This document shows positions 1,948-32,556 of a stretch of DNA of 42,096 nucleotides, piece after piece. The stretch lies in NCBI GenBank assembly GCA_003282425.1, contig QBZF01000004.1, forward strand, positions 1 through 42,096, written 5' to 3'. The DNA comes from Prochlorococcus sp. AG-335-A05. GTDB taxonomy: Bacteria > Cyanobacteriota > Cyanobacteriia > PCC-6307 > Cyanobiaceae. Position 1 is the stretch's first letter. Every line of letters begins with the position of its first letter. The notes beneath the pieces are model-generated. The model was given only the letters and a program-made list of their open reading frames with translations, did no database searches and was not told the DNA's origin. The translations under genes and the position numbers were made by a program.

Positions 1948-3390
1948 ATGATTAAAACTAAAATAAAAAATATTTGTTGTATCGGAGCAGGATATGTAGG
2001 AGGTCCAACTATGTCTGTAATAGCAGATAAGTGTCCTGACATTAATGTAAATGTTGTTGATAAAAATTCTGAAAGAATTGCATTATGGAATAATTCAAAT
2101 TTAGATTTACTTCCTATTTACGAGCCTGGTTTAGATAAGATTATTGCAAGATGCAGGGGGAAAAATTTAACATTTTCTACAAAAATAAAAGAGAAAATTT
2201 CCTCTGCTGATATGGTATTTATTTCTGTAAATACTCCAACAAAAACAAAAGGTATTGGCGCGGGGCAAGCAAGCGACCTTAAATGGGTGGAAGCTTGCGC
2301 AAGAGATGTAGCAAAGTTTTCATTGGGTCATACAATAGTTGTAGAAAAAAGTACTCTTCCAGTTAAAACCGCTGAGGTAATTAAAAAAATATTAGAATCT
2401 TCACAGATTACAAATAATTCTCAAAAAGAAAAATCATTTGACGTTTTATCTAATCCAGAATTTCTAGCTGAAGGGACAGCTATAAAAGACTTAGAAAAAC
2501 CTGATAGAGTTTTAATTGGTGGAGAAAAAAATGGTGCAATACTTGCTTTACATAATATTTATAGTAACTGGGTCCCAAATGAAAAAATTTTACATACTAA
2601 TATTTGGAGTAGTGAATTAGCGAAACTTACATCAAATGCTTTTTTAGCGCAGAGAATAAGTTCCATAAATTCTATTGGTGCAATTTGTGAAGCTACAGGT
2701 GCTGATGTTAGAGAAGTTGCTAGAGCCATAGGTTCTGATAGTAGAATTGGATCTAAATTTTTAGATGCTGGACCAGGCTTTGGAGGTAGTTGTTTTAAAA
2801 AAGATATTTTAAATCTTGTATATTTATCAAAATATTTTGGTCTAAATGAAGTTGCATCTTTTTGGGAGGGAGTAGTTAAATTAAATAATTGGCATCAAAA
2901 AAGGATCTCAACATTAGTTGTAGAAAAACTATTTGGGTCTGTTAGTAACAAAAAAATTGGTATTTTAGGATTCTCTTTTAAAGCAAACACAAATGATACA
3001 AGAGAATCTGCTGCTATAAGTATTTGTAAAGATTTAATAGAAGAAGGAGCAATCCTAAACATACATGATCCAAAAGTTGAAGAAAATCAAATTTCAAGAG
3101 ATTTAGGAGTTAATTCAACAAATTCAAATAGAGAAAATAGGGTTAATAATCAAATGCGAAATTCAGGGCATTGGGTTTTTGCCTCCAATATAAATGAAAT
3201 CTTTCCTGATGCAGATGCAATATTGATCCTTACAGAATGGGAAGAATACACAAATATAGATTGGAAGAGGATTTCAATAAAAATGAGAAGACCTGCATGG
3301 ATTTTTGATGCGAGATCAATACTAGATCCCAAAAAACTTAAAAATACAAATTTAAATTTATGGAGAATAGGAGATGGTTTTAATACATAA
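1948..3390 (+). CDS. ugd: UDP-glucose 6-dehydrogenase
   Basis: Oxidises UDP-glucose to UDP-glucuronate with two NAD+. The Rossmann motif GAGYVGGPT is at residues 13-21. The catalytic cysteine is C282 in GFGGSCFKKD, and the conserved VEKSTLPVKTAE and NPEFLAEGTA segments are present. At 480 residues it is longer than many bacterial Ugd proteins (about 390-440). It resembles the long eukaryote-type form, for example in VGGPT and the spacing of the C-terminal UDP-binding domain. The product is the substrate of the UDP-glucuronate 4-epimerase at 6662-7708. It sits 82 bases after manC and 68 bases before gmd, with no obvious terminator between. Confidence 0.95.
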   Translation: MIKTKIKNICCIGAGYVGGPTMSVIADKCPDINVNVVDKNSERIALWNNSNLDLLPIYEPGLDKIIARCRGKNLTFSTKIKEKISSADMVFISVNTPTKTKGIGAGQASDLKWVEACARDVAKFSLGHTIVVEKSTLPVKTAEVIKKILESSQITNNSQKEKSFDVLSNPEFLAEGTAIKDLEKPDRVLIGGEKNGAILALHNIYSNWVPNEKILHTNIWSSELAKLTSNAFLAQRISSINSIGAICEATGADVREVARAIGSDSRIGSKFLDAGPGFGGSCFKKDILNLVYLSKYFGLNEVASFWEGVVKLNNWHQKRISTLVVEKLFGSVSNKKIGILGFSFKANTNDTRESAAISICKDLIEEGAILNIHDPKVEENQISRDLGVNSTNSNRENRVNNQMRNSGHWVFASNINEIFPDADAILILTEWEEYTNIDWKRISIKMRRPAWIFDARSILDPKKLKNTNLNLWRIGDGFNT

Positions 3391-3458
3391 AAAAATATGC
3401 ACAAAATAAGTTAGATTAATAAATAATCCATTTATCAATAGAAAGAAATTAAATAATA

Positions 3459-5585: not shown

Positions 5586-6641
5586 CTAACAAAAATTTTT
5601 AATATTCGAATGCCATTTCCAACCATCACTACACATATCACTAATTTTCCTTTTTGGTTCCCAATTTAGAGTTTTTTTAGCCAATTCATTATCCGCAACT
5701 ATCCTATCTACATCCCCCTCCCTGCGATTTACAAAATCATAAGGCACTTCTACATTATTTATTTTTTGAAAAGTTTTAACCAATTCTAAAACACTTGTTG
5801 GTTTTCCAGTACCCAAATTAAGATTTAAAAATTTCGAATTCTTCATGTTTAAGAAGTATTCTAATGCCATGATATGTCCATCAGCAAGATCCATAATATG
5901 AATAAAGTCTCTTATGCAGGTCCCATCATTAGTATTCCAATCATTACCAAATATTTTTAATTTTTTTATTTCTCTTGATGCCACTTTGTTAATTAATGGG
6001 AATACATTATTGGGCATTCCTTTAGGATTTTCGCCAATCAATCCACTACTATGAGCTCCTATTGGATTAAAATATCTAAGATTTGCTATCTGCCATTTTT
6101 GCTTATCACTCTCAAAAAGATTTTGCAACATAAATTCAATAGTTGCCTTGGTAAATCCATAAGGATTAATAGGATTAATATTTGAAATTTCATTAATTAA
6201 CAGATTTTGATTTTTACCATATATTGTGGCGCTACTACTAAATATCAAACAGTGGCAATTAAACTTGTCCATAGCTTCCAATAATCTAATTGCCCCAATC
6301 AAATTACAATTCCAATAATTTAATGGAAAATTTACCGATTCTTTAACTGATTTTAAACCAGCTAAATGAATTACTCCTTCGATTAGCTTATTTTCTTTTT
6401 TTGCATCCAAAAATATCTTTTCTAAAAAATGAGAATTTCTGATATCACCCTCATATAAATGGAGATTTTTTTTAAATAAAGGATTAATAGAGTTAATTAG
6501 TTCTATCATTCTCAAATAAAATGACTTGGAACTATTTAAAAAAGAATCGATAATTACTACATCATAATTTTTCTCTAGTAATGAAATGGTCACATGACTA
6601 CCAATAAAACCAACTCCCCCTGTAATAAGAATTTTTTTCAT
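5586..6641 (-). CDS. galE: UDP-glucose 4-epimerase
   Basis: Interconverts UDP-glucose and UDP-galactose using tightly bound NAD. 351 residues. Motifs: TGGVGFIGSH at about 7-16, the SSSATIYG serine block near 135-142, and the YxxxK pair Y161/K165 in NPYGFTK. GTGKPTSVLEL and the C-terminal RREGDVDRIVAD segment are GalE-typical. It is the last gene of the - strand run that starts at 12435, 20 bases after the UDP-glucuronate epimerase. The usual substrate is inferred; GalE relatives that act on UDP-GlcNAc exist. Confidence 0.93.
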   Translation of the reverse strand: MKKILITGGVGFIGSHVTISLLEKNYDVVIIDSFLNSSKSFYLRMIELINSINPLFKKNLHLYEGDIRNSHFLEKIFLDAKKENKLIEGVIHLAGLKSVKESVNFPLNYWNCNLIGAIRLLEAMDKFNCHCLIFSSSATIYGKNQNLLINEISNINPINPYGFTKATIEFMLQNLFESDKQKWQIANLRYFNPIGAHSSGLIGENPKGMPNNVFPLINKVASREIKKLKIFGNDWNTNDGTCIRDFIHIMDLADGHIMALEYFLNMKNSKFLNLNLGTGKPTSVLELVKTFQKINNVEVPYDFVNRREGDVDRIVADNELAKKTLNWEPKRKISDMCSDGWKWHSNIKNFC

Positions 6642-6661
6642 AAATAATATTGAAACCTATT

Positions 6662-7708
6662 TCATTTATAGTTTTCAGAATAATATTTACTATACCAATC
6701 AGCAAAAATCTTAATCCCTTTTTCAAAGGAGGTTTTAGGTTTAAAACCTATCCACTCATCTAAAGAAGTTATATTTGCATATGTTTCTTTTACGTCTACT
6801 TTAAGCATTGGCTTGAAAACTTTTATTGCCTTTTTATCAAGGTGATACTCTAATAAATCTATAAATTTCAATAGTTTAACTGGACTGCTATTACCAATAT
6901 TAAATATTCTATGCGGAGCAAAAGAAGTAGCAACTGAAGGATTACAAGTATCAAATAATGGATTAATAGTGGCAGGTTTAAAGCAACATTTAAAAATTGC
7001 TTGAACAATATCTTTAATAAAAGTGAAATCCCTTTGCATCTCACCGTAATTAAATACTTCAATTGGTTCTTCTTGGAGTATAGATTTCGCAAAAATCATT
7101 GGTGCCATGTCGGGCCTGCCCCATGGCCCATAAACCGTAAAAAAACGCAATCCTGTTGCTGGCAAATTATGGATATGACTATAAGCATGAGCCATTAACT
7201 CATTAGATTTTTTTGTCGCCGCATAAAGGCTTACAGGATGATCAACACTTTGTTCCTCTGAAAATGGCAAATTTGTATTTCCTCCATAAACAGAACTGCT
7301 TGAAGCATAAACCAAATGATTGACATTATTTTTTGCACAATTTTCAAGGATGTTTGAGAATCCAACCAAATTACTTTCAATATATTTCTTTGGGAATTTG
7401 AGTGAATAACGTACACCAGCTTGTGCAGCTAAATTGACAACTATTGAAGGTTTAAATTTTTTAAATAGTTTACTTAATTGGTTATCATCTGCTATGTTGC
7501 AATTAAAGAACTTCCATTTATTTTTTTTTAAAAAAGAACTTTCTTCTATATTTTGAATTCTTTTTTCTTTTAAATTAACATCATAATAAGAATTTAAATT
7601 ATCTATTCCAACAACAACAAAACCATTTTTTAGTAATTCAAGAGATAAAGCTGCTCCAATAAATCCAGCAGCACCTGTCACAAAAATTAAATCATTATTT
7701 TTTGACAT
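6662..7708 (-). CDS. UDP-glucuronate 4-epimerase
   Basis: Extended SDR that converts UDP-glucuronate to UDP-galacturonate (CapI/LpsL/GAE family). 348 residues. Features: VTGAAGFIGAAL near the N-terminus, GIDNLNSYYDVNLKEKR (a family signature), SSSSVYGGN, the YxxxK pair Y162/K166 in LYAATKKSNELMAH, and the diagnostic FFTVYGPWGRPDMA and MQRDFTFIKDIV segments. Its substrate comes from ugd (1948-3390), which lies on the other strand, so the pathway is split between two transcripts. Gene symbols vary between organisms, so I give none. Confidence 0.92.
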   Translation of the reverse strand: MSKNNDLIFVTGAAGFIGAALSLELLKNGFVVVGIDNLNSYYDVNLKEKRIQNIEESSFLKKNKWKFFNCNIADDNQLSKLFKKFKPSIVVNLAAQAGVRYSLKFPKKYIESNLVGFSNILENCAKNNVNHLVYASSSSVYGGNTNLPFSEEQSVDHPVSLYAATKKSNELMAHAYSHIHNLPATGLRFFTVYGPWGRPDMAPMIFAKSILQEEPIEVFNYGEMQRDFTFIKDIVQAIFKCCFKPATINPLFDTCNPSVATSFAPHRIFNIGNSSPVKLLKFIDLLEYHLDKKAIKVFKPMLKVDVKETYANITSLDEWIGFKPKTSFEKGIKIFADWYSKYYSENYK

Positions 7709-7779
7709 CCGTAAATAAATAATTAGTAAATAACTTTTGCAAAAATATAAGGAAATTTTAAATAAAATATGTTTACATT

Positions 7780-9138
7780 TTATATCCTTAAAAGTCTTAA
7801 AAAGCTATCTGACATAAATATTTCATAAGGATCGAGTCCCCTTTTTATTTCAATCCAATCGTCAAGCATTTGATAAGATTCTCTAAATATTTCAGGAGAT
7901 TGCCTAGAGTCTTTTGCTAAATATATTCTTCCTCCTTCTGAAACTATTTCTTTATCTAATTTTGAAAGTTCTTGATTTAGATTTTTAATATTGGATGGAA
8001 TATCAATTGCCAAAGTCCATCCAGCAATAGGGAATGATAAGTAGCCAGGATTATTTTTACCGAATCTTTTTAACACTGTTAGGAATGATGGAGCAGATAT
8101 TTTTCTTAACTTTTCTAGAGTTTTACTTATAAGATAGGATGCCTTATCTGGGACAACAAATTGATATTGTATAAAACCTTCTGAACCATATATTCTGTTC
8201 CAATTATTAATTCCATCTAGTGGATAAAAAAATTGTCCAATACTTTGTATTTCTCCATACCTTAACTTTGGATGCTTTCTGAACCATGCCTCATTAAATG
8301 TTTTTACTGTAAATTTATTGAGAAGTCCTGATGGGAAAAATTTAGGAGCGGTCGCTAAGGCTTTGATGCTATAGTCTAATGGTTTTTCTGCTAGATCTTT
8401 GGTCAATTGACTTTTATCAAGATGCTCTCCGCAAGATAATACCCCTCTAAAATTCTTATTGAGACTATCCACCCATGCTACGCTGTATTTATATTTTTTG
8501 TCTGCTTTAACCATAGCGTTCATTAAGGAATCAATATCAAGAAATCTTTTAGTATCAACTTTGATGTAAGAACTTGAGATTGGGATAACCGAAAAAGTAG
8601 CTTCCAAAATTATGCCAGTTAAACCCATACCGCCAACTGTAGCCCAGAATTTTTTTACGTTGTGGGGATTTAAATCATCAAAAGGTCTTAATTTATGAAT
8701 CTCACCAGTGCCGTCCATCAATATGATTTGCTTTAAGTTTTGTCCAAAACTACCATTTATATGGTGATTTTTTCCATGAACATCTGAAGCGACAGCACCT
8801 CCAACCGTTACAAAGCGAGTTCCTGGTGAAACTGGCAGAAAATATCCTTTTGGGACAATAAAACTTAGTAATTCATCGAACGAAATCCCAGCTTCTGCAG
8901 TTACTACATGATTATCTGTATCTAATTGAAATGAATTAAAGTTACTTAAACTAACTACACTTTTTTTATCAAGTTGAGCAGAATCTCCGTAAGATCTTCC
9001 CAACCCTCTTGCTATCAAAGATTTATAATCAGCATTTCTTACGATTTTTTTTAATTTTTCTTCATTCAAAGGAGTAAAAACAGTACAATCAGCAAATTTA
9101 TTTCTACCCCATCCATAAATTTTTTTCGAATCAATCAT
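7780..9138 (-). CDS. dprE1: DprE1-like FAD-dependent decaprenylphosphoryl-ribose 2-oxidase
   Basis: In mycobacteria DprE1 oxidises C2 of polyprenyl-phospho-ribose; DprE2 then reduces the ketone to give polyprenyl-phospho-arabinose. At 452 residues it is close to mycobacterial DprE1 (461). The FAD domain shows ARGLGRSYGDSAQ (43-55), SPGTRFVTVGGAVASDVHGK (104-123) and NHHINGSFGQN after it. The C-terminal YLAKDSR keeps the lysine (K409) matching the catalytic Lys418 of M. tuberculosis, and the end (FMSDSFLRLL) also matches. The position of mycobacterial Cys387, in GW-N-I-C-V-D, is alanine here (GWTLAID, A377). It follows the DprE2-like gene by 10 bases. A cyanobacterial lipid carrier of another length is possible, so the exact lipid is inferred. 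Confidence 0.9.
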   Translation of the reverse strand: MIDSKKIYGWGRNKFADCTVFTPLNEEKLKKIVRNADYKSLIARGLGRSYGDSAQLDKKSVVSLSNFNSFQLDTDNHVVTAEAGISFDELLSFIVPKGYFLPVSPGTRFVTVGGAVASDVHGKNHHINGSFGQNLKQIILMDGTGEIHKLRPFDDLNPHNVKKFWATVGGMGLTGIILEATFSVIPISSSYIKVDTKRFLDIDSLMNAMVKADKKYKYSVAWVDSLNKNFRGVLSCGEHLDKSQLTKDLAEKPLDYSIKALATAPKFFPSGLLNKFTVKTFNEAWFRKHPKLRYGEIQSIGQFFYPLDGINNWNRIYGSEGFIQYQFVVPDKASYLISKTLEKLRKISAPSFLTVLKRFGKNNPGYLSFPIAGWTLAIDIPSNIKNLNQELSKLDKEIVSEGGRIYLAKDSRQSPEIFRESYQMLDDWIEIKRGLDPYEIFMSDSFLRLLRI

Positions 9139-9148
9139 CTTTTAAAAA

Positions 9149-9895
9149 CTATAATCTGGAAACTAGAAAATTTGGCATTAATCTTATTAAAAACATAATA
9201 GGTCTCCAATGCCATGGTAGATATTCAACTCCCCTTTTAGAATTATTTTTTAATAAGATCCTAGCAACATCTGCAGTTTTAATACAAAGAAAATTTGGGA
9301 CCTTGCCAAATGTCATCGGTGTTGCCATATAACCTGCTTTTATAATACGGACACAAAAAGGCTTCCCATAACAACTAGACATTAAACCTTCACACATATT
9401 TTGAAGACCTGCTTTTGCAGAACCATAATAATAGTTAGAAGGTCTTCCTCTATCGGCGGCGACAGATGTAAATACCCATAAACGAGAACATTTTGCAATT
9501 CTCTTTGGAGTTGCAATTGCGTTTATCCATGGAACAATTCCAAAATAATTGCAATTTATTATATTCTTTGCTTCATTAAAATCAACCCTTGCAACTCCAT
9601 TATTTCCTAAATATCCAACTGTTACTAAGTAAAGATCAAAATCCTCAACTTTATAAAAATTTTTTTCATTTTCTTCATTTTGGCAATTTAAATTAATTGT
9701 TTTTTCTATAATTTGAACTTTATTATTCTTTTTCAAATTTTTAGCGAATTTTTTGCTCTTTTCTGAATCCCTTGAAATTAGATAAAATTTTTCGCAACCA
9801 TTTTTTGCTAATTCAATACAAATAGATTGAGCGACTAAACTATTTGAACCTAATACCCAAACACTTTTTATTATCTTATTTTTTTTAAAAAGCAT
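9149..9895 (-). CDS. dprE2: DprE2-like short-chain dehydrogenase (2-keto-ribose lipid reductase)
   Basis: Classical-size SDR of 248 residues (mycobacterial DprE2 is 254), expected to reduce polyprenylphosphoryl-2-keto-ribose to the arabinose form with NADH. The cofactor region is VWVLGSNSLVAQSI near the N-terminus, an atypical glycine pattern also seen in DprE2. The catalytic YYYGSAKAGLQNM carries Tyr and Lys, and serine lies in VFTSVAADRGR. The C-terminus (RGVEYLPWHWRPIMFLIRL) resembles the membrane-associating tail of DprE2. It is coupled to the DprE1-like gene (10-base gap) and follows the HAD-flippase fusion gene by 85 bases. Pairing with DprE1 makes the assignment strong. Confidence 0.88.
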   Translation of the reverse strand: MLFKKNKIIKSVWVLGSNSLVAQSICIELAKNGCEKFYLISRDSEKSKKFAKNLKKNNKVQIIEKTINLNCQNEENEKNFYKVEDFDLYLVTVGYLGNNGVARVDFNEAKNIINCNYFGIVPWINAIATPKRIAKCSRLWVFTSVAADRGRPSNYYYGSAKAGLQNMCEGLMSSCYGKPFCVRIIKAGYMATPMTFGKVPNFLCIKTADVARILLKNNSKRGVEYLPWHWRPIMFLIRLMPNFLVSRL

Positions 9896-9980
9896 TTTTT
9901 AAATCCTTATTTAGACATTCTATCAACTGTCAAAAAATAAAATATTATTTAATTAATTATTTTTCAAAATTTTCCCATAA

Positions 9981-11525
9981 TTAATTAAGGATTCTTCTCA
10001 ATCCTAAAGAAATAAAACCAAGGAATGTAGCAAACCAAAGTGTTATTAATCTCGTAATTATCACTGCATTCCCTGCAATATCTAAAGGGATTTGTTTAAA
10101 AGATAAAAAACTAAACATTGATAATTCTGTAGTTATCATTCCTCCTGGGAGCATTGACAAACCGCCTATTAGCCCTGAAGTTGTATGAACCAAAGTTGCA
10201 AAAATTATGCTTATATCAAAAAAACCAAGTTCATTTATAATTAACCAAAAACCAATTCCTTCTAATAGCCAAGAAATTATTCCAAGAATTGTTGTAAATA
10301 AAATTAATTTAAAATCATAAAAGTTTTTTAGGCAATTTAAAGACTGATTTGATAAATTCCTAAATTTTTTAGGTAATAATTTTTTAAAAACATAACCAAG
10401 AAACCTTTGAATTCTATATTTAAAATTTAATATCAAAAATATAACTAAAAAAGCAATTAACAAAAATAAAAAAAAGTAATTAATAGAATAAAAATTTTTA
10501 ATATTTAAAAATAATTTCCAATTTATTAAAATTATGATAAATATAGATAATAGATCACTCATTCTCTCATATATAAGAGCCGAAGTAGATTTAAATAAAG
10601 AAATTCCAAATTTTTCATATAGAAAATATGATCTAATAAGTTCTCCAGCTTTTCCTGGAGATGCGGTAAAAGCATAAGAACTCATCCATGATAAAAAGTC
10701 ATCTTTAATTGGTAAAATCAAACCTAACTTCATAAGCAAAATTCGCCACCTAATAAATCTCAAAAAATAGCCGATAAGAACAGCAAATATAGCCTTAAAA
10801 AAAGTTAGGTTTAATAGCCTTATTGTTTCAAATACTTGATTTTGAAGAAAAGTACTTATCATTCCATACGATAAAAAAAGCCCCCCTACTAAAAGTATTA
10901 AATTTTTAAAGGAATAATTTGGGTATGGTACTGGGTAAGAAAAAAAAGATTTGTAATGAGGAATTTCTGCATTATCTAATAATTCTTTATCGCCTTCACT
11001 ATCACCATATGCTTCGTAAATAAGTTTATCTTTTAAAGAATTATTAGCGTTCAAGGCGATAACTTTATTTATTCCTTTTATATTTTTTCCTTGAATAATT
11101 GGAAACCATTTATTATTTATTTTTTTTAATTTTGTAGAAATTAAATCAACCTCAAGATAATTCGCTAATGGAGCAAGCAGCATATCAAATGATGCTGAGC
11201 ATAGAACAACTTTATCTCCCTTTTTTTTATGAAATTCAATTCTATTGAGTGCATTGTTATTTATTCTTTTTTTTAAAATTTGTAAAAACCACTCATTATT
11301 ATTAAAATGATCTTCTCTATTAAATTTTTCACATATCTTAAAATATTTCACAAATTTTTCTTTGATAGACTCATCAGAGATAAATTTAAGTCTCCAAAAA
11401 ATAAAACTTGGCAAAAAATACAAAAAAGAAATTATGGTGCCTCCTGAGGATTGAGAACTAATTGCAGCTAGAAATAATGAATCTCCTCTAATTAAAGTTC
11501 CATCAACGTCAAATACAGCTAACAT
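9981..11525 (-). CDS. HAD phosphatase fused to a flippase-like (LPG_synthase_TM/UPF0104) membrane domain
   Basis: Two-domain protein. Residues 1 to about 200 are a HAD phosphatase: FDVDGTL (5-11), a serine motif VVLCSAS near 106-112, and the acidic motif GDSEGD (174-179). After about residue 208 there are 7-8 hydrophobic segments with ASPGKAGELIR (288-298) and GGLSMLPGGMITTE (about 454-467), typical of the LPG_synthase_TM/UPF0104 flippase-like family. Inferred job: dephosphorylate polyprenyl-phospho-5-phosphoribose made by the UbiA-like neighbour, and help move the finished arabinolipid across the membrane. I start at ATG 11525, one base after the ubiA-like stop; a TTG at 11534 overlapping that stop would add three residues. 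HAD domains fused to UbiA-type enzymes are familiar to me, but this fusion partner is not. Confidence 0.85.
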   Translation of the reverse strand: MLAVFDVDGTLIRGDSLFLAAISSQSSGGTIISFLYFLPSFIFWRLKFISDESIKEKFVKYFKICEKFNREDHFNNNEWFLQILKKRINNNALNRIEFHKKKGDKVVLCSASFDMLLAPLANYLEVDLISTKLKKINNKWFPIIQGKNIKGINKVIALNANNSLKDKLIYEAYGDSEGDKELLDNAEIPHYKSFFSYPVPYPNYSFKNLILLVGGLFLSYGMISTFLQNQVFETIRLLNLTFFKAIFAVLIGYFLRFIRWRILLMKLGLILPIKDDFLSWMSSYAFTASPGKAGELIRSYFLYEKFGISLFKSTSALIYERMSDLLSIFIIILINWKLFLNIKNFYSINYFFLFLLIAFLVIFLILNFKYRIQRFLGYVFKKLLPKKFRNLSNQSLNCLKNFYDFKLILFTTILGIISWLLEGIGFWLIINELGFFDISIIFATLVHTTSGLIGGLSMLPGGMITTELSMFSFLSFKQIPLDIAGNAVIITRLITLWFATFLGFISLGLRRILN

Positions 11526-11526
11526 T

Positions 11527-12435
11527 TTAAGCAAAAAAGTATCCGATTATAAAAGTTGTTGTTATCCAACAAATAATAATTATTTTTATAAACTTATCTT
11601 TAAGAAGAATATCTTCAGGATTCTCAGTTTTTATTGTGAAAATCTTTTCCGAATCTTCAATAGTTTCACTAATAAATTGGTATCTAAATATGCCTATAAG
11701 AACAAAGGGGACCGTTAGTAACATCCATTCAGTAGGTGCGCCATTTAATTTTGGTCCAGATGCCCATAATGAGTAGAAAACAAATGCACTTGATGTGACA
11801 ATATTTTCAAATTTAGTTAGTAAACTTATTGAATAAAATCTCAAAACTCTTCTATTAAATTTCCCAGTTTTTTGAGACCATTTTAATTCTGCTTTTCTTT
11901 TTTCAATTGCTAAAAAGAGTGCTGACAAAGTTACACTTAGCAGAAACCATGGAGAAATATTTAACCCTCCAGCCAAACCTCCAGAGATAGCTCTCAAAAG
12001 AAATCCAGTAGATATACAAAAAATATCTAATAATGGAACCTTTTTAAAAATTAGGCAATAAAATAGTTGTATTAATAAATATGAAGTAAATATTATTAAA
12101 ACTCTTTGATCAAGATTTAAAGCAATAAAAAAACCTGCAGACAGCAAAAATAAAAATAATATTACTGCTTGTTTAATAGAAACATGGCCAGATGCTATTG
12201 CCCTTTTACTTTTTTTTGGATGATTTCTATCAGATTCAATATCTAATAAATCATTTATTAAATATATTGATGAAGAAATAGAACAAAATCCAACAAAAGT
12301 TAAAGTAGCAGCTAACCAAACTTCTCTATTATCAGAATAACTAAAAAGTGGCGCAGAAAAAACTAAAAGATTTTTTGTCCATTGTTTTGGTCTGAGTGCA
12401 GATATTAAGTAAAGAATAGACATTTTCAACTTCAT
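11527..12435 (-). CDS. UbiA-family polyprenyl-phosphate 5-phosphoribosyltransferase (DPPR synthase-like)
   Basis: Integral membrane prenyltransferase, expected to transfer 5-phosphoribose from PRPP to polyprenyl phosphate. 302 residues, the same length as mycobacterial Rv3806c (UbiA). LRPKQWTKNLLVFSAPL (14-30) is typical of this subgroup. The first acidic motif is NDLLDIESDRNHPKK (61-75), where NDxxDxxxDxxHPxK separates these enzymes from quinone-pathway UbiA. The second motif YCLIFKKVPLLD ends at D137. Eight to nine hydrophobic segments follow. As first gene of the - strand run 12435-5586 it starts the arabinolipid pathway. An aromatic prenyltransferase role is unlikely given the dprE1/dprE2 neighbours. 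Confidence 0.87.
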   Translation of the reverse strand: MKLKMSILYLISALRPKQWTKNLLVFSAPLFSYSDNREVWLAATLTFVGFCSISSSIYLINDLLDIESDRNHPKKSKRAIASGHVSIKQAVILFLFLLSAGFFIALNLDQRVLIIFTSYLLIQLFYCLIFKKVPLLDIFCISTGFLLRAISGGLAGGLNISPWFLLSVTLSALFLAIEKRKAELKWSQKTGKFNRRVLRFYSISLLTKFENIVTSSAFVFYSLWASGPKLNGAPTEWMLLTVPFVLIGIFRYQFISETIEDSEKIFTIKTENPEDILLKDKFIKIIIICWITTTFIIGYFFA

Positions 12436-22467: not shown

Positions 22468-22473
22468 ATTTTG

Positions 22474-23910
22474 ATGAATTTTATTTCTTTAAAAAATTAT
22501 AACTTCACAAAAATATCAACTAATTTATTAAAAATATTCTGCATTTTTAATATTTTTAATCTAATTCTTTTAGTAGTTAATTCATTTGGAAAGACTATCA
22601 TTTATGAAGATAGTTTTATGCTATTTAATCCATTTGAGGAAAATTTTTGGACATGGGTTTTTAAATCCCATAATGGCCATTTAATAACATTATCTAAATC
22701 AATTACTGTTATATTTAAACACTTATCAATATCTCCTACCGGATACAATATAACAATATCAATTTTGTTTATTTTTCTAGGCATAAGTACTTTAAAAAAA
22801 ATTTTTGATAGTATTTGTTTTCATAATGATGTATTTAAAGATATATATTTTTTAATATGCGTATACCTTTGGACATCTTCAGCTCAATGGGAAAATTTGA
22901 TTTGGGAATTTCAAATCCCATGGTTTTTAATAGCCTTTTTTGTATTAAATCTAACTCTTAGATATTTAATTTTAGAAGAAGAAAAAAGCAGTTTTATTTC
23001 AAATATATATTTTTTGTTGAGTCCAATAGTTGCCTGTTTATCATCTGGACAAGGAATTTTTTATGTGAATTGTCTAATACCTAGTCTTTTTTTTAAAGGT
23101 CAAATCAAATATTATTCTGTATTTGGAATATTAATTTCATATATAATTTTTATAACTGATAAGATCACTTACCCAACTGGAAATTTAAGTTTAAATTTAA
23201 ATTTAATTGAAAATATTTATTACATATTTGTAATGATATTTACAATTTTTAAACCTTCAATATCAGATTTTAGTCAAATCTCAAAAATTGAATGGATTAT
23301 ACCAATCCTTTCATCAACAGTTTTACAGTTATTTCTAATAAAGAAAAATATTTTAAAAATATTAATTATCATCAAAAACAAAATTAATCAATTACATATT
23401 TTGACGCCAATTCTTTTTTCATTGCAGTTTATTTTAATAACAAGTTTAACTAGGAGTAAATATGGAATCCATCAAGCTGCTGTATCAAGATATTTAACTT
23501 GTACAAATTTTCTAATAATAGGTTTAATAATTCTATTTTTTTATTTGAATCAATTAAATGTTTTTGAAAATATTTCTCAGAAAATTCAGATTAAAAATAA
23601 AGATATTAAAACTTTTTCAAATTTATTTATTTTATGCTTATTATTAAATACATCTTTTATATTTAAGACTATCTTCGCAACACAAAATTTATATCTAACA
23701 AGATTAGATAATTTCCAAATTTTTAGTAAAGCCTGCAAAGAATATAATAAATTTGAAGAAAATGATATTTCAATAAAAAAATATTACGATAAATTCAATC
23801 CCAAAATAGGTGCAAATATACCTCCTTTATCAGATTCCAAAGAGTTCCTGAATTTCAAGAATTACCTTGATTCCTCTTACTGTAAATCTATAAAAAATAT
23901 AACTAATTAA
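22474..23910 (+). CDS. polytopic membrane protein, possible GT-C-type glycosyltransferase
   Basis: Not recognised as a named family. 478 residues with about ten hydrophobic segments. The first predicted external loop after helix 1 has YEDSFMLF and then KSHNGHLITLS. An acidic pair in this position fits GT-C glycosyltransferases, which use polyprenyl-phosphate sugars. The C-terminal 60 or so residues are hydrophilic. It ends the three-gene + strand run with the dioxygenase and the FkbM gene, and overlaps the convergent WecA-like gene by 8 bases. The start is ATG 22474; a TTG at 22471 adds one residue. Alternatives are a Wzy-type polymerase or an acyltransferase-like membrane enzyme. Confidence 0.55.
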   Translation: MNFISLKNYNFTKISTNLLKIFCIFNIFNLILLVVNSFGKTIIYEDSFMLFNPFEENFWTWVFKSHNGHLITLSKSITVIFKHLSISPTGYNITISILFIFLGISTLKKIFDSICFHNDVFKDIYFLICVYLWTSSAQWENLIWEFQIPWFLIAFFVLNLTLRYLILEEEKSSFISNIYFLLSPIVACLSSGQGIFYVNCLIPSLFFKGQIKYYSVFGILISYIIFITDKITYPTGNLSLNLNLIENIYYIFVMIFTIFKPSISDFSQISKIEWIIPILSSTVLQLFLIKKNILKILIIIKNKINQLHILTPILFSLQFILITSLTRSKYGIHQAAVSRYLTCTNFLIIGLIILFFYLNQLNVFENISQKIQIKNKDIKTFSNLFILCLLLNTSFIFKTIFATQNLYLTRLDNFQIFSKACKEYNKFEENDISIKKYYDKFNPKIGANIPPLSDSKEFLNFKNYLDSSYCKSIKNITN

Positions 23911-26557: not shown

Positions 26558-27808
26558 CTAAGAAAGCCAAAAAGATTTTAAAGCAAGTTCAAAATAAATC
26601 ATTAAAATTCCAATTAAAGATAATCTTGGAGTAAAACTCATAAATAAAGCAAGAAAAGGGGTCAAGAAAACATAATATTTTGAATAAGAAAAGAATGGGA
26701 ATAATGTAATTGTTAAGAAAATCATTAATGAAGAGGAAATAAAAAATAACTTAATATAATTAGGAAAAATTTTACTTTCTAACGAAAAAATTCTCAAAAA
26801 GCCTTTGAAGAATGATGTTAAAAAAACTAACGTAGTTATTAAACTTGGTTTTATTCCAAATGGAGTACTTATTATTAATCCTTGTATTGTGCCAAAAATA
26901 CGAAATAAAATTGGATATTTGAAAATAATTTCGTAACTTTGATTATCATCACTAAAATATGAAGTAAAAATTGTAGATAAGAAAGTTTTATCTACAGGAA
27001 AAATACTAGCTAGAGAATTAATTAAGAAACCCCTATAAGAAATGGTTAAAAAGATTATTATTACAAATGGGATTAAAAATAAAAAAAGCAGATTTTTTGA
27101 GAAAGCAAATTTTCTAGCTAGAATTCTTTTAAATTGTAAGGCAAATTTATCAAGAAGATTTATAACAAATTTATTTTTTGATAAGTAAAAAGATAATAAA
27201 GATACTAAGAAGATTCCTATTTCTATAACTGATTGATTATCAGGCGCTATAGTTTTAACAATAAAAAAAGGAACTATTATTATTGGATATAAATACTTTA
27301 ATCTATTTAAAAAAGATAAATAAAATGACACCATTACAAAGCTTATAGATAAAAAATGATGTGGCACATCAATATGAAATGCTAATAAAAAAAATGGAAC
27401 TGAAGGTAATAAAGTTAAATTAAAAATAATTCTCCTATATAAATTTTTATTACTCCCAAGGTGAGTTGATAATTTATAGAAAAAAAGTATTAGTAAAAGA
27501 AATACAAAAGAAATTAAAAAATAATAAAAAAAATAATTATAAGTAAAAGGTAAAGATTGGCATTTGTAATAACCTCCACCTAATAAATAGTCAAAAAATA
27601 ATGAGGGGGATCTTATAGTTCCGCAAAAACGTCCTTCAAATAAATTTGATAAATTAAAAATCCTAACAAGTCCAAGAAAATCGCTACTATTAAGAATTTT
27701 TCTATAAATATAAAATATATCGGGATAATCATCCAATGGAAATATTATAAATCTAAAAAAGGATGCGAAAATAAAACTTAAAAATAAATTGTATTTTGAA
27801 ATCTTCAA
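26558..27808 (-). CDS. polytopic membrane protein, possible polymerase or GT-C glycosyltransferase
   Basis: Not recognised as a named family. 416 residues with roughly ten hydrophobic segments, very rich in Phe, Ile and Leu. The first loop has FPLDDYPDIFYIY, an acidic DDxxD cluster placed like GT-C active-site loops. A later loop has AFHIDVPHHFLSIS and IAPDNQSVIEIG. The start is TTG at 27808, because an in-frame TAA directly precedes it and no ATG occurs before the acidic loop. It lies between two GT2 genes. It could be a Wzy-like polymerase or the arabinosyltransferase that uses the DprE-pathway lipid. It does not look like a Wzx (MATE-like) flippase. Confidence 0.5.
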   Translation of the reverse strand: MKISKYNLFLSFIFASFFRFIIFPLDDYPDIFYIYRKILNSSDFLGLVRIFNLSNLFEGRFCGTIRSPSLFFDYLLGGGYYKCQSLPFTYNYFFYYFLISFVFLLLILFFYKLSTHLGSNKNLYRRIIFNLTLLPSVPFFLLAFHIDVPHHFLSISFVMVSFYLSFLNRLKYLYPIIIVPFFIVKTIAPDNQSVIEIGIFLVSLLSFYLSKNKFVINLLDKFALQFKRILARKFAFSKNLLFLFLIPFVIIIFLTISYRGFLINSLASIFPVDKTFLSTIFTSYFSDDNQSYEIIFKYPILFRIFGTIQGLIISTPFGIKPSLITTLVFLTSFFKGFLRIFSLESKIFPNYIKLFFISSSLMIFLTITLFPFFSYSKYYVFLTPFLALFMSFTPRLSLIGILMIYFELALKSFWLS

Positions 27809-29542: not shown

Positions 29543-30598
29543 TTAAAATGGTCCTTTAAACCATTCTCCTGGAATATCATGCGGATCAGGTTCAGGAATA
29601 TCCTTATAAGGATTTGCATTTTCAATTTTTAATTTTTGCAAAATTTCATTTGCTATATCAGCAGCTCTAATATAAAATCCTTTCGTTAATTCGAAGCTTG
29701 TTGGCTCAGGGATATCAGGCATTGTCAAAATACAAGGAGAATCTTTGAAATAAGAAAAACATTTAGTAGATAATTTAGAAATTATATCTGAAGCTACTGA
29801 ACATGTTGATGCTCCCGTGTCTAAAACTAAAATTCTGCCTGTTTTAGATAATGAACTTACTATGGTATCTATATCTAATGGTTTTATAGATCTCAAATCA
29901 ATTAAATCAACTTCAATGCCAAACTGTTTTAAATATTTTGCTGCAATTAAAGCCTCTGCGGTCAAATAAGACATTGATACTATTGTAAAGTCATTACCCT
30001 CTTTTATTTTTTTTGCTTTACCTAATGGAATTCGATAATCACCATCCGGGACCTCACTAGAAGAATTATGCAACCATCGATGTTCTAAAAAAATAACTGG
30101 ATTGGGATCAAAAATTGAACTTAGCAAAAGTCCCTTAGCATCCTCTGCCGAGCTTGGCATAACAACTTTTAGACCTGGGATATGAGCAAACCATGATTGT
30201 AAATTTTGTGAGTGTGTGGGGCCTTGTCCCCAGCCTCTCCCTAATATTAACCTTACGGTTAAAGGAACATTTAATTCACCATTAAACATATAATGCATTT
30301 TTGCGGCACTATTAACTATTTGATCCATTGCTAAAAGAAAAAAATCAAGTCTTTGATGGGTCATTATTGTTTTCATTCCACTTATTGAGGCTCCTATTGC
30401 AACACCAGTCATTGCATTTTCAGAGGTTGGCATATCAAAAACTCTTTCACTTCCAAACTTCTCTTCAAGGCCTACAGTAGTACCAAAAATTCCTTTTGGA
30501 TCTGTAGCTCCTAATCCATAACAAATAACATTTTTATCAATGGACATGGCTACTTTTATAGCTTCATTAATAGAATTTGCGAATGTAATATTTTTCAT
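29543..30598 (-). CDS. TPP-dependent 2-oxo acid dehydrogenase/carboligase, E1 beta subunit
   Basis: 351 residues, homologous to pyruvate/acetoin dehydrogenase E1 beta (transketolase pyrimidine-binding and C-terminal domains). Motifs: MPTSENAMTGVAIGASISG, HQRLDFFLLAMDQIVNSAAK, RGWGQGPTHSQNLQSWFAH, and DPNPVIFLEHRWLH. The C-terminal domain has VDLIDLRSIKPLDIDTI. It follows the alpha gene by 15 bases. No E2 (lipoyl acyltransferase) or E3 lies anywhere in the window, so a normal dehydrogenase complex is unlikely. Known parallels are AviB1/AviB2 of avilamycin biosynthesis, E1-like proteins that attach a two-carbon unit to a sugar. The substrate here is not known. Confidence 0.86.
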   Translation of the reverse strand: MKNITFANSINEAIKVAMSIDKNVICYGLGATDPKGIFGTTVGLEEKFGSERVFDMPTSENAMTGVAIGASISGMKTIMTHQRLDFFLLAMDQIVNSAAKMHYMFNGELNVPLTVRLILGRGWGQGPTHSQNLQSWFAHIPGLKVVMPSSAEDAKGLLLSSIFDPNPVIFLEHRWLHNSSSEVPDGDYRIPLGKAKKIKEGNDFTIVSMSYLTAEALIAAKYLKQFGIEVDLIDLRSIKPLDIDTIVSSLSKTGRILVLDTGASTCSVASDIISKLSTKCFSYFKDSPCILTMPDIPEPTSFELTKGFYIRAADIANEILQKLKIENANPYKDIPEPDPHDIPGEWFKGPF

Positions 30599-30613
30599 GA
30601 AAATTATATTAAA

Positions 30614-31603
30614 TCACTCTGCGTATAATTTTTGATATGCTTCTGATTTCTCAGGAAATGGATCGGTTTTAGACTTTCTAAAAGCTTCTTCGATTTCCGA
30701 TTCAATAAATTTATCAATTTTTCCATAATCAATTAATACTTGATTATTTTTTTTAAATAACTCAAGTGGGTCTCTTTTTTTCCAGGCTAAATATTCATTC
30801 TCATCTCTATAACCTAAATGATTATCAAATTGATAACCACAATGTTCTCTCCATCTGTACGTATCGAATTCAATAAACCATGGACCTGATTCGCATGTTT
30901 TAATCTTTGTAATTATTTCTTTAAGTACTTTTCTAGATTCCAAAACATTGTTGCCATCAGCATGAGCAACATTTGCGCCTATAGCCTTTGCAAGAAGATT
31001 AATTGATCTTCCCTCAGGTTGTCTTACACTTAAAGGACTATAAACACTATATAAATTATTTTCGCAGATAAAAACAACTGGTAAATTTTTTAATACTGCA
31101 AAATTAAGAGATTCATAAAAAACTCCTTCTTCTATTGCTCCATCACCTATAAAAATACATGAAATAGAATTTTTCTTTTTTAGCTTATTTGATAATGCTA
31201 AGCCTACTCCCAAGGGAATACTGTTACCAACTATTGCGGATGTACCCATAAATCCCTTTTGTTTATCTATTAAGTGCATTGAACCACCTTTACCACCAGC
31301 ACAGCCAGTTGTTTTGCCATAAATTTCTGCAATCATTTTATTTAAATCTCCTCCTTTTGCTAGGTAATGAGCATGCCCTCTATGCGTACTTACAAAATAA
31401 TCATGATCATTTACCAAAGTAGAAATAGCTGCAGGAACTCCCTCTTGGCCAATGGACAAATGTGTAGGACATCTGATTTCATTATATGGGTACTCTTCAG
31501 CTATTCTCTCTTCAACAGATCTGATTTTTTTTAACATGTAATATGTTCTTTTAATTATATCTTCGTTGATTTCAGAATTTTGATTTTCTTCTAGATTAAA
31601 CAT
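30614..31603 (-). CDS. TPP-dependent 2-oxo acid dehydrogenase/carboligase, E1 alpha subunit
   Basis: 329 residues from ATG 31603. A GTG at 31642 would add 13 residues and overlap the SDR gene by 28 bases; I prefer the ATG, which leaves an 11-base gap. The family signature HRGHAHYLAKG is at 74-84. GCAGGKGGSMHL follows, then the TPP/Mg motif IGDGAIEEG (152-160) ending in ENN (181-183). It partners the E1-beta gene downstream. In this setting it probably decarboxylates a 2-oxo acid and passes the acyl or hydroxyalkyl unit to a keto-sugar. That is inference from locus context and from the E1-like sugar-branching enzymes of avilamycin-type pathways. Confidence 0.86.
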   Translation of the reverse strand: MFNLEENQNSEINEDIIKRTYYMLKKIRSVEERIAEEYPYNEIRCPTHLSIGQEGVPAAISTLVNDHDYFVSTHRGHAHYLAKGGDLNKMIAEIYGKTTGCAGGKGGSMHLIDKQKGFMGTSAIVGNSIPLGVGLALSNKLKKKNSISCIFIGDGAIEEGVFYESLNFAVLKNLPVVFICENNLYSVYSPLSVRQPEGRSINLLAKAIGANVAHADGNNVLESRKVLKEIITKIKTCESGPWFIEFDTYRWREHCGYQFDNHLGYRDENEYLAWKKRDPLELFKKNNQVLIDYGKIDKFIESEIEEAFRKSKTDPFPEKSEAYQKLYAE

Positions 31604-31614
31604 AGACTTATGAA

Positions 31615-32556
31615 TTAATTTAAACTTATCTTTTTCATCCACTTAACTGTGTAACAGTTCTCTCCCTCTGGTAAGACTTTATTATTAAATGCATTTGCGA
31701 TATCTTTTATAGCATCAAGGACAGTAAACTTTGGAGTGAATCCAGTTTGTATTAATTTAGACGAATCTTGTCTATAAGATCTAGGATCATTAGATTCAGT
31801 AATTTCTATTTCTGAAGGTATAACATTTGACACCATTTCAGCAATTTTTTTGATGGTTATGTTCTCAAAACCTGCATTATAGCAACCACTTTGAATCCCA
31901 GGGTTTTCAATAAAATGTTTATATACGTTAGCAATATCTTTTATATGAATATTTGGACGTGTCTGATCACCTCCAAAAACAGTCATTTTCTTATTTTTTA
32001 ATGCTTGATAAGTAAACATATTTACACTAACATCTAGTCTCATTCTTGGAGAAAAACCACAAACTGTGGCAGGTCTTATGCAATGAACTTGCATTTTGTC
32101 TTGATAAGAAAGAAAGACTCTTTCAGCTACCATTTTTGTTTTGTTGTAGACAGAGATTGGGACAAGCTCAAGATCTTCTGTTACGTTAGGCTCTTCCTTT
32201 ACACCATAGACACTTCCTGAGCTAGCAAATATAAAGTGTCTTACATGATTTCTCTGAGCTTTCTCAATTAATTGCTGTCCTGCAAGAACATTTACTTCCC
32301 AACTAAGAGTAGGGTTTAGCTCAACAGCGGGATCATTAGCGATATTAGCAAGATGAATTATTGCATCAACTCCATCCATATTTATTTTGTCAATATCTCT
32401 AATATCAATATTTAAATTCTGAAGATTTTTATGATTAGGAAGGTAATTTCCAAACCACTGGGTGTCAATAGAAATTATTTGATGGCCTTCTTCTAATAAT
32501 ATAGGTATTAAATACGAACCTTTATAACCACATCCCCCAGTAATAATTATTTTCAT
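31615..32556 (-). CDS. NAD-dependent epimerase/dehydratase (extended SDR)
   Basis: 313 residues, extended SDR for a nucleotide sugar. The cofactor motif is TGGCGYKGSYL (6-16), with Lys in place of the usual Phe/Ile before the last Gly. IDTQWFGNYLP suits NAD binding. The serine block is FASSGSVYG (110-118), and YxxxK is Y137/K141. HCIRPATVCGFSPRMRLDV is a recurring motif in LPS-locus epimerases of unknown substrate. FGGDQTRPNIHIKDIANVY is typical. It overlaps the upstream SDR gene by four bases (ATGA). Substrate not assigned; the E1-pair product is a candidate. Confidence 0.8.
   Translation of the reverse strand: MKIIITGGCGYKGSYLIPILLEEGHQIISIDTQWFGNYLPNHKNLQNLNIDIRDIDKINMDGVDAIIHLANIANDPAVELNPTLSWEVNVLAGQQLIEKAQRNHVRHFIFASSGSVYGVKEEPNVTEDLELVPISVYNKTKMVAERVFLSYQDKMQVHCIRPATVCGFSPRMRLDVSVNMFTYQALKNKKMTVFGGDQTRPNIHIKDIANVYKHFIENPGIQSGCYNAGFENITIKKIAEMVSNVIPSEIEITESNDPRSYRQDSSKLIQTGFTPKFTVLDAIKDIANAFNNKVLPEGENCYTVKWMKKISLN

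Follow-up and report, generated by a model that had tools for sequence, protein, structure and literature searches.

The window analysed here, a stretch of 42,096 nucleotides from Prochlorococcus sp. AG-335-A05, carries on its minus strand four neighbouring genes in the order UbiA, HAD-UPF0104 fusion, DprE2 and DprE1, the stop codon of UbiA and the ATG of the fusion gene lying one base apart. The features of this locus are:

11527..12435, minus strand: UbiA-type polyprenyl-phosphate phosphoribosyltransferase without a HAD domain (NF008978 at 237.3 bits, cut-off 207; PF01040)
9981..11525, minus strand: HAD-UPF0104 fusion gene, ending in the stop codon 9981-9983; its product, counted from the ATG, has 514 aa
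10926..11525, minus strand: HAD-IB phosphatase half, residues 1-200, with DxDxT (D6, D8), SAS (S110), K154 and GDSxGD (D175, D179)
9984..10913, minus strand: UPF0104 / LPG_synthase_TM / MprF-flippase-like membrane half, residues 205-514
9149..9895, minus strand: DprE2-like reductase adjoining DprE1 (NF053786 at 98.5 bits, under the cut-off of 250)
7780..9138, minus strand: DprE1-like polyprenylphosphoryl-ribose 2-oxidase (NF053785 at 494.1 bits, just under the cut-off of 500; PF01565)

The profile whose cut-off the window UbiA passes, NF008978, is that of decaprenyl-phosphate phosphoribosyltransferases. Both members of the oxidase-reductase pair miss their NCBIfam cut-offs, and it is from their pairing and context that we argue for a DprE1/DprE2 epimerase; a simple scan found no hydrophobic spans in either protein. 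Family profiles and gene order agree with the initial annotation in placing the fusion gene in a DprE1/DprE2/UbiA locus, and the set of UbiA, fusion, DprE2 and DprE1 is expected to make polyprenyl-phosphate arabinofuranose. The remaining window is a surface-polysaccharide locus with nucleotide-sugar enzymes, glycosyltransferases and methyltransferases, and it includes a transketolase/E1-dehydrogenase pair (Transket_pyr and E1_dh, 29543-31642). Among the 29 window proteins scanned, from a genome that is 54% complete, there was no Pfam match to MATE or Polysacc_synt families, and Pfam recognised no GT-C transferase; two multi-span proteins without a Pfam or NCBIfam match (22471-23910 and 26558-27808) are candidates for a polymerase, flippase or GT-C transferase. 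The source assembly measures 0.86 Mb (congeners reach up to 1.8 Mb) and carries a GtrA gene unlinked to the fusion locus (G000:C5:9447-9791; L256).

The reading frame of the fusion, 9981-11534, contains no internal stop and opens with a TTG at 11534, followed by the in-frame ATG at 11525. A domain search of the two halves, as the initial annotation had proposed, identified a HAD-IB phosphatase and a UPF0104 protein, both halves passing Pfam and NCBIfam cut-offs, so that the two-domain assignment is borne out. PF12710 (HAD) matches residues 3-183 at 74.6 bits (cut-off 27) and PF03706 (LPG_synthase_TM) residues 216-503 at 98.4 bits (cut-off 33.4); these are the sole Pfam matches, and neither GtrA (PF04138) nor the DUF2156/PF09924 lysyl-transferase domain was detected in the protein. 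In NCBIfam, TIGR01488 (HAD-IB) scores 60.6 bits against a cut-off of 45 and TIGR00374 (flippase-like) 75.3 bits against 43.2. For TIGR01490 the window fusion, at 81.6 bits, stays under the cut-off of 98.3; L084, one of its fused relatives, passes that cut-off at 149.6, as does the unfused HAD of L104 at 153.9. The motifs quoted earlier are present in the translation, and conservation extends to both halves. The HAD catalytic residues D6, D8, K154 and D179 are kept in all 16 fused proteins, D175 in 15 of them with N in the remaining one, and position 110 is S in 14 and T in 2. Within the membrane half, R256, R259, P290, G294, E295, the PGG at 460-462, E467, R492 and W497 are invariant, both among the fused copies (15 of 15) and among the separate UPF0104 copies from dpr loci (26 of 26).

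A sequencing or assembly error joining two adjacent genes, which the initial annotation had named as a possible source of the fusion, would fit with the split order HAD ... UPF0104 found in other phyla. However, the same domain order recurs in 16 distinct fused proteins (window included) from separate genomes, among them the single-contig genomes G480, G487, G569 and G040, and this recurrence rules out a frame error, to which we assign next to no probability. The relatives share 25-42% identity with the window protein where aligned, and the set includes G118, whose gene breaks at contig ends inside the membrane half. By identity, the nearest named fused relative among 80 of 258 relatives is that of Prochlorococcus sp. 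AG-402-P18; a scan of genome contigs with the single protein as query found no relative. In two genomes, G480 and G487, a second, separate UPF0104 gene comes after the fusion gene. At L080:5057-7566 and L083:4404-6952 such a separate gene directly follows the fusion, and its membrane domain is closer in the tree to the other fused type (with L082, L102) than to the neighbouring fusion.

An AlphaFold2 model of the fusion, built from an alignment of 32 rows comprising fused proteins as well as separate HAD and UPF0104 genes, reached a mean pLDDT of 88 and a pTM of 0.63. The model is weak at about residues 201-230, between the halves, and therefore does not fix the mutual placement of the two domains. 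Comparison with Foldseek and VIA-align related the HAD half to HAD-IB phosphatases (3fvv_A, Z 20.7 over 195 residues) and the membrane half to MprF, of which six entries rank first (Z 21.3 to 23.4, 280-286 residues aligned, all within MprF residues 27-341); the best match, 9goe_A, has Z 23.4 over 286 residues and MprF residues 34-341. A profile search of PDB sequences matched HAD proteins alone. The membrane half is thus predicted to fold like the flippase domain of MprF, and it does not come from an unrelated enzyme family, the other objection that had been anticipated. Of the earlier proposal that the fusion ties a phosphatase to a translocase, what stands is a phosphatase joined to a membrane domain with a predicted MprF-flippase fold; flipping itself we infer.

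The locus counts draw on 80 loci with DprE1, of which the 72 with UbiA in the stretch enter the counts; 8 DprE1 loci without UbiA in the stretch were left out, as were L199 and L202, stretches without DprE1. L100/G424 and L101/G587 are apparently the same records and were each counted once, and the fused and UbiA entries of L050 were filled in from L076, which belongs to the same genome but to a different contig. DprE2 was present at E 1e-40 or better in 60 of 369 genomes of the class of a Gallionella genome, and neighbourhoods were taken for 40 of these 60; the neighbourhood of G450, one of the 23 DprE1-positive genomes of the window's own class, was omitted. Across the 72 loci, HAD is fused to UbiA in 26, stands alone in 7 and is fused to UPF0104 in 12, with none seen in 27. 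The genus loci (n = 19) comprise 5 fused to UPF0104, 3 HAD-UbiA, 2 with HAD alone and 9 with no HAD; the corresponding numbers are 7, 9, 0 and 4 for the class (n = 20) and 0, 14, 5 and 14 for the Gallionella class (n = 33). Two HAD sources in one locus were found in 0 of 72. The 12 fused and 26 HAD-UbiA loci show zero overlap (p 0.003), although this p value, like those given below, is too small, as loci within one genus or clade are not independent and each was counted singly.

Elsewhere, the two halves are encoded separately within this gene set, and by the classical argument such a pattern suggests that the fused parts work together. Eight named proteobacterial loci have separate DprE1, DprE2, HAD, UbiA and UPF0104 genes (L104, L105, L106, L107, L108, L112, L114 and L158), L109 and L110 are partial versions broken by contig ends, and the fully split locus also appears in 3 of 33 loci of the DprE2-seeded sample. 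The named set, 80 of 258 relatives, was seeded on HAD patterns and enters no statistic; many of its Bacteroidota and Campylobacterota loci contain UbiA, DprE1, DprE2 and HAD but no UPF0104. The survey of homologues suggested in the initial annotation has in this way recovered the fused form in 16 proteins and the split form in proteobacterial dpr loci. A Parachlamydiaceae stretch (L103:7794-8783 and 11227-11841) holds a UPF0104 gene and, some 2.4 kb from it on the opposite strand, a HAD gene, with no UbiA or DprE1 match within the stretch. Between the dpr genes of L096 lie two ORFs of equal length (424 aa; 6610-7884 and 9673-10947), both of them overlain on the opposite strand by an ORF of 390 aa, resembling a repeated inserted element, and L084 contains two DprE1-like genes in a single locus (2017-3420 and 9720-11027).

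Both phylogenetic trees are quick ones with long branches. The HAD tree groups fused types I and II together (support 85), joined by two separate HADs, those of L047 and L012, whose loci carry GtrA and come from the same genus. The lone HAD of L047 (L047:12166-12837), beside GtrA, falls inside the fused type I clade (95%); its C-terminus enters the linker briefly and then ends, with no readable membrane half downstream, which would fit a fusion that shed this half in a locus served by GtrA. On both trees L011, L084 and L085 make up a third fused group, placed apart from these. Fused rows need 4 changes on the HAD tree, at least 2 of them forced, and 7 on the membrane-half tree, where at least 4 are forced by strongly supported branches. 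Several fusions, or a single fusion with losses, would both be compatible with these topologies. The HADs of HAD-UbiA rows are split off with 100% support and a branch length of about 4, and the first motif IV position is N in 6 of 7 HAD-UbiA proteins and D in 15 of 16 fused proteins and 34 of 34 separate HADs. A HAD shared with the HAD-UbiA fusions was rejected on the basis of this distant branch; HADs were apparently recruited to this one step on more than one occasion.

Occurrence across genomes links the membrane half to DprE1. DprE1 was present in 21 of 249 genomes of the same genus at a threshold of 240 bits, the remaining matches listed being under 30 bits. A sound match to the UPF0104 half was found in 11 of the 249, and 9 of these 11 also have DprE1, compared with 12 of the 238 genomes without UPF0104 (Fisher 1.7e-9). 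This count leaves out G251, where a weak match of 27 bits with ten stops (G251:C16:4101-4556) is perhaps a decayed copy; with G251 included it becomes 9 of 12. The two UPF0104 genomes without DprE1 are G160 and G220; UPF0104 stands apart from any dpr gene in the former (L074) and possibly in the latter (L075, at a contig end). The G160 gene (L074:7393-8364) belongs to a polysaccharide locus, where its immediate neighbour is amine-oxidase-like and a Polysacc_synt gene lies close by; the 16 kb covered contain no dpr gene. In the class, DprE1 was present in 23 of 388 genomes (at least 280 bits) and the full-length fusion in 9 of 388, all 9 with DprE1 (Fisher 1.6e-12). The 99% complete genome G040 has UbiA-DprE1-DprE2 without an adjacent HAD, its fused gene lying 2.3 Mb away. 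Control windows of 17 kb from the surveyed genomes (n = 37) gave no UPF0104, HAD, UbiA or DprE1 match, and yielded three weak DprE2 matches, one weak FAD match and one GtrA match of 14.6 bits with the broader profile.

The initial annotation had predicted the missing flippase of the pathway. As a general statement this finds no support: UPF0104 occurs in 25 of 72 loci, GtrA (broader profile) in 36 and neither in 18, and in Citrobacter the step has been assigned to a MATE protein. The absence of HAD from 27 of 72 loci, and of both UPF0104 and GtrA from 18, indicates that other proteins can perform these steps. A narrower GtrA profile missed clear GtrA genes in L184, L192, L197 and L208 as well as a weak one in L048 (16 bits) and was replaced by the broader one. 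Strict mutual exclusion of GtrA and UPF0104 was rejected, both being present in 7 of the 25 UPF0104 loci; with all loci pooled, the two-sided p is 0.08 for the narrower and 0.013 for the broader profile, and single sets without the FAD gene gave p 0.06, 0.03 and 0.11. In FAD-free loci the two families nearly exclude each other: both are present in 1, UPF0104 only in 18, GtrA only in 21 and neither in 17, with p 1.8e-4 (0.002 under the narrower profile), values that serve as a guide only because the division by FAD gene was made post hoc, after the data had been seen. FAD-bearing loci have both in 6, GtrA only in 8, UPF0104 only in 0 and neither in 1. The FAD gene, amine-oxidase-like, recurs in dpr loci as a pair with an epimerase (Pfam Epimerase and Amino_oxidase), usually together with GtrA, in cyanobacteria, gammaproteobacteria and an Arcobacter (L012, L046, L047, L051, L079, L081, L082, L152, L185, L191 and L206); these genes may serve in making or exporting a further or modified pentose.

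Overall, we consider the fusion to be a two-step, membrane-bound component of the polyprenyl-phosphate-D-arabinofuranose pathway, a reading to which we give a probability of roughly 60% and in which both activities are putative. UbiA would make polyprenyl-phosphate-ribose-5-phosphate. The HAD half, for which a cytoplasmic location is expected because the model has no span ahead of it, would take off the 5-phosphate and free the 5-hydroxyl; its role as the pathway phosphatase acting on this lipid is very probable, given the strong context and intact motifs. DprE1 and DprE2, judging from their families, would then epimerise C2, turning ribose into arabinose, and the UPF0104 half would carry the pentose lipid so formed across to the periplasm, where some transferase would use it. 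That the membrane half flips the finished pentose lipid is suggested by its predicted fold and context and is somewhat less secure than the phosphatase role, though still probable. By tethering phosphatase to translocase, the fusion would clear 5-phosphorylated lipid at the loading site. The joining of an early step, the phosphatase, to the last cytoplasmic step, the flippase, is an unobvious pairing and counts against this explanation.

The membrane half could instead be a mere anchor, or a docking platform to UbiA and DprE1/DprE2, for a HAD that is still the pathway phosphatase, while GtrA or another protein flips the lipid. Of the 12 fused loci, 5 (L049, L052, L079, L081 and L082) have GtrA next to the fusion, the window's genome has its unlinked GtrA, and an anchor function has been proposed for Rv3789 (PMC7389260). 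However, the complete identity of the listed membrane-half residues in fused and separate copies goes beyond what anchoring would require, stand-alone UPF0104 genes are present in such loci although they need not anchor a HAD, GtrA is missing from the surroundings of the fusion in the other 7 of the 12, and G040 lacks any PF04138 match; we regard an anchor as unlikely. Slightly less likely again is that the membrane half flips some other lipid, such as the returning polyprenyl phosphate, an O-antigen unit or the product of the epimerase-FAD pair. The coexistence of UPF0104 and GtrA in 6 FAD-bearing loci speaks for such a substrate and counts against UPF0104 as the pentose-lipid flippase there, and UPF0104 relatives in sugar loci without dpr genes (G160, L074) point the same way. 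On the same side, other families include known polyprenyl-phosphate flippases (DedA and DUF368; PMC12893004). Against it stand the tight association with DprE1 and the window locus, L059, L080 and L083, which have neither the epimerase nor the FAD gene.

Several known systems resemble the two-step component in part. A HAD(PRP)-UbiA fusion of the Citrobacter youngae ORF15 type occurs with a MATE flippase and GT-C, and DprE1/E2 in Araf systems (Kelly et al. 2024, PMC11127046); that paper assigns flipping in Citrobacter to the MATE protein, and its Discussion claims no direct flippase evidence. The window protein resembles HAD-UbiA (PMC11127046; NF006088) in that its HAD phosphatase is joined to a membrane protein from the pathway and would act on the same 5-phosphate, but the partner here is UPF0104 instead of UbiA and the HAD comes from another branch; the window locus also contains the UbiA-type polyprenyl phosphoribose synthase of the three-component pentofuranose system (Kelly et al. 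2024). MprF, a lysyl-phosphatidylglycerol synthase and flippase, likewise combines enzyme and flippase in one chain, and its flippase domain has the fold predicted for the membrane half, whereas the window protein lacks a lysyl-transferase domain, has its HAD at the N-terminus and is expected to act on polyprenyl-phosphate-pentose. Archaeal AglD-type GT2-UPF0104 proteins and stand-alone GpgF/COG0392 also couple UPF0104 to a sugar-lipid enzyme by fusion or operon (PMC5898192, PMC12713373), the partner being a glycosyltransferase there and a phosphatase here. PF03706 proteins have been predicted as MprF-related flippases (PMC5898192), and GpgF is a predicted flippase awaiting experimental verification (PMC12713373); the literature consulted contained no demonstration of UPF0104 flipping polyprenyl-phosphate sugars. 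The mycobacterial DPA pathway (Rv3806c, Rv3807c, DprE1/DprE2, Rv3789) has UbiA, DprE1 and DprE2 homologues in common with the window (PMC7502851, PMC7389260). However, its phosphatase Rv3807c is described as unrelated to HAD-family PRPs (PMC11127046), whereas the putative one of the window is a HAD, and for flipping the candidate there is Rv3789, a GtrA protein of contested role (PMC7389260), where the window has UPF0104.

Among open-licence papers, no title or abstract opening linked UPF0104 or MprF-type flippases with the pathway. Compared with the systems described by Kelly et al. 2024, what appears new is that the pathway phosphatase has a third position and that DprE1/DprE2 loci contain one more candidate family of flippases; the enzyme-to-flippase design has precedents, as has the fusion of HAD to a pathway membrane protein (PMC11127046). 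More tentatively, and at less than even odds, UPF0104 proteins of the MprF fold may, in addition to GtrA and MATE proteins, be another class of flippase for polyprenyl-phosphate pentoses, serving the 25 of 72 DprE1/DprE2 loci that carry it in cyanobacteria and gammaproteobacteria; in the cyanobacterial fusion the tethered phosphatase would act as a gate through which the translocase receives only lipid without 5-phosphate. An outside location of epimerisation has been suggested for mycobacteria; were it to apply here, the fusion would channel the ribose lipid directly from dephosphorylation to flipping. There is no settled answer as to which protein moves the polyprenyl-phosphate forms of arabinose or ribose through the membrane, the evidence on Rv3789 being in conflict (PMC7389260), and a fold known from solved structures together with a tractable fused enzyme offers a direct route to testing the transporter in harmless organisms. 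The shuffling of modules, with the phosphatase on UbiA, alone or on a candidate flippase, is a guide for annotating pentofuranose loci, in which UPF0104 genes are otherwise easily overlooked, and these pentofuranose pathways occur in marine picocyanobacteria.
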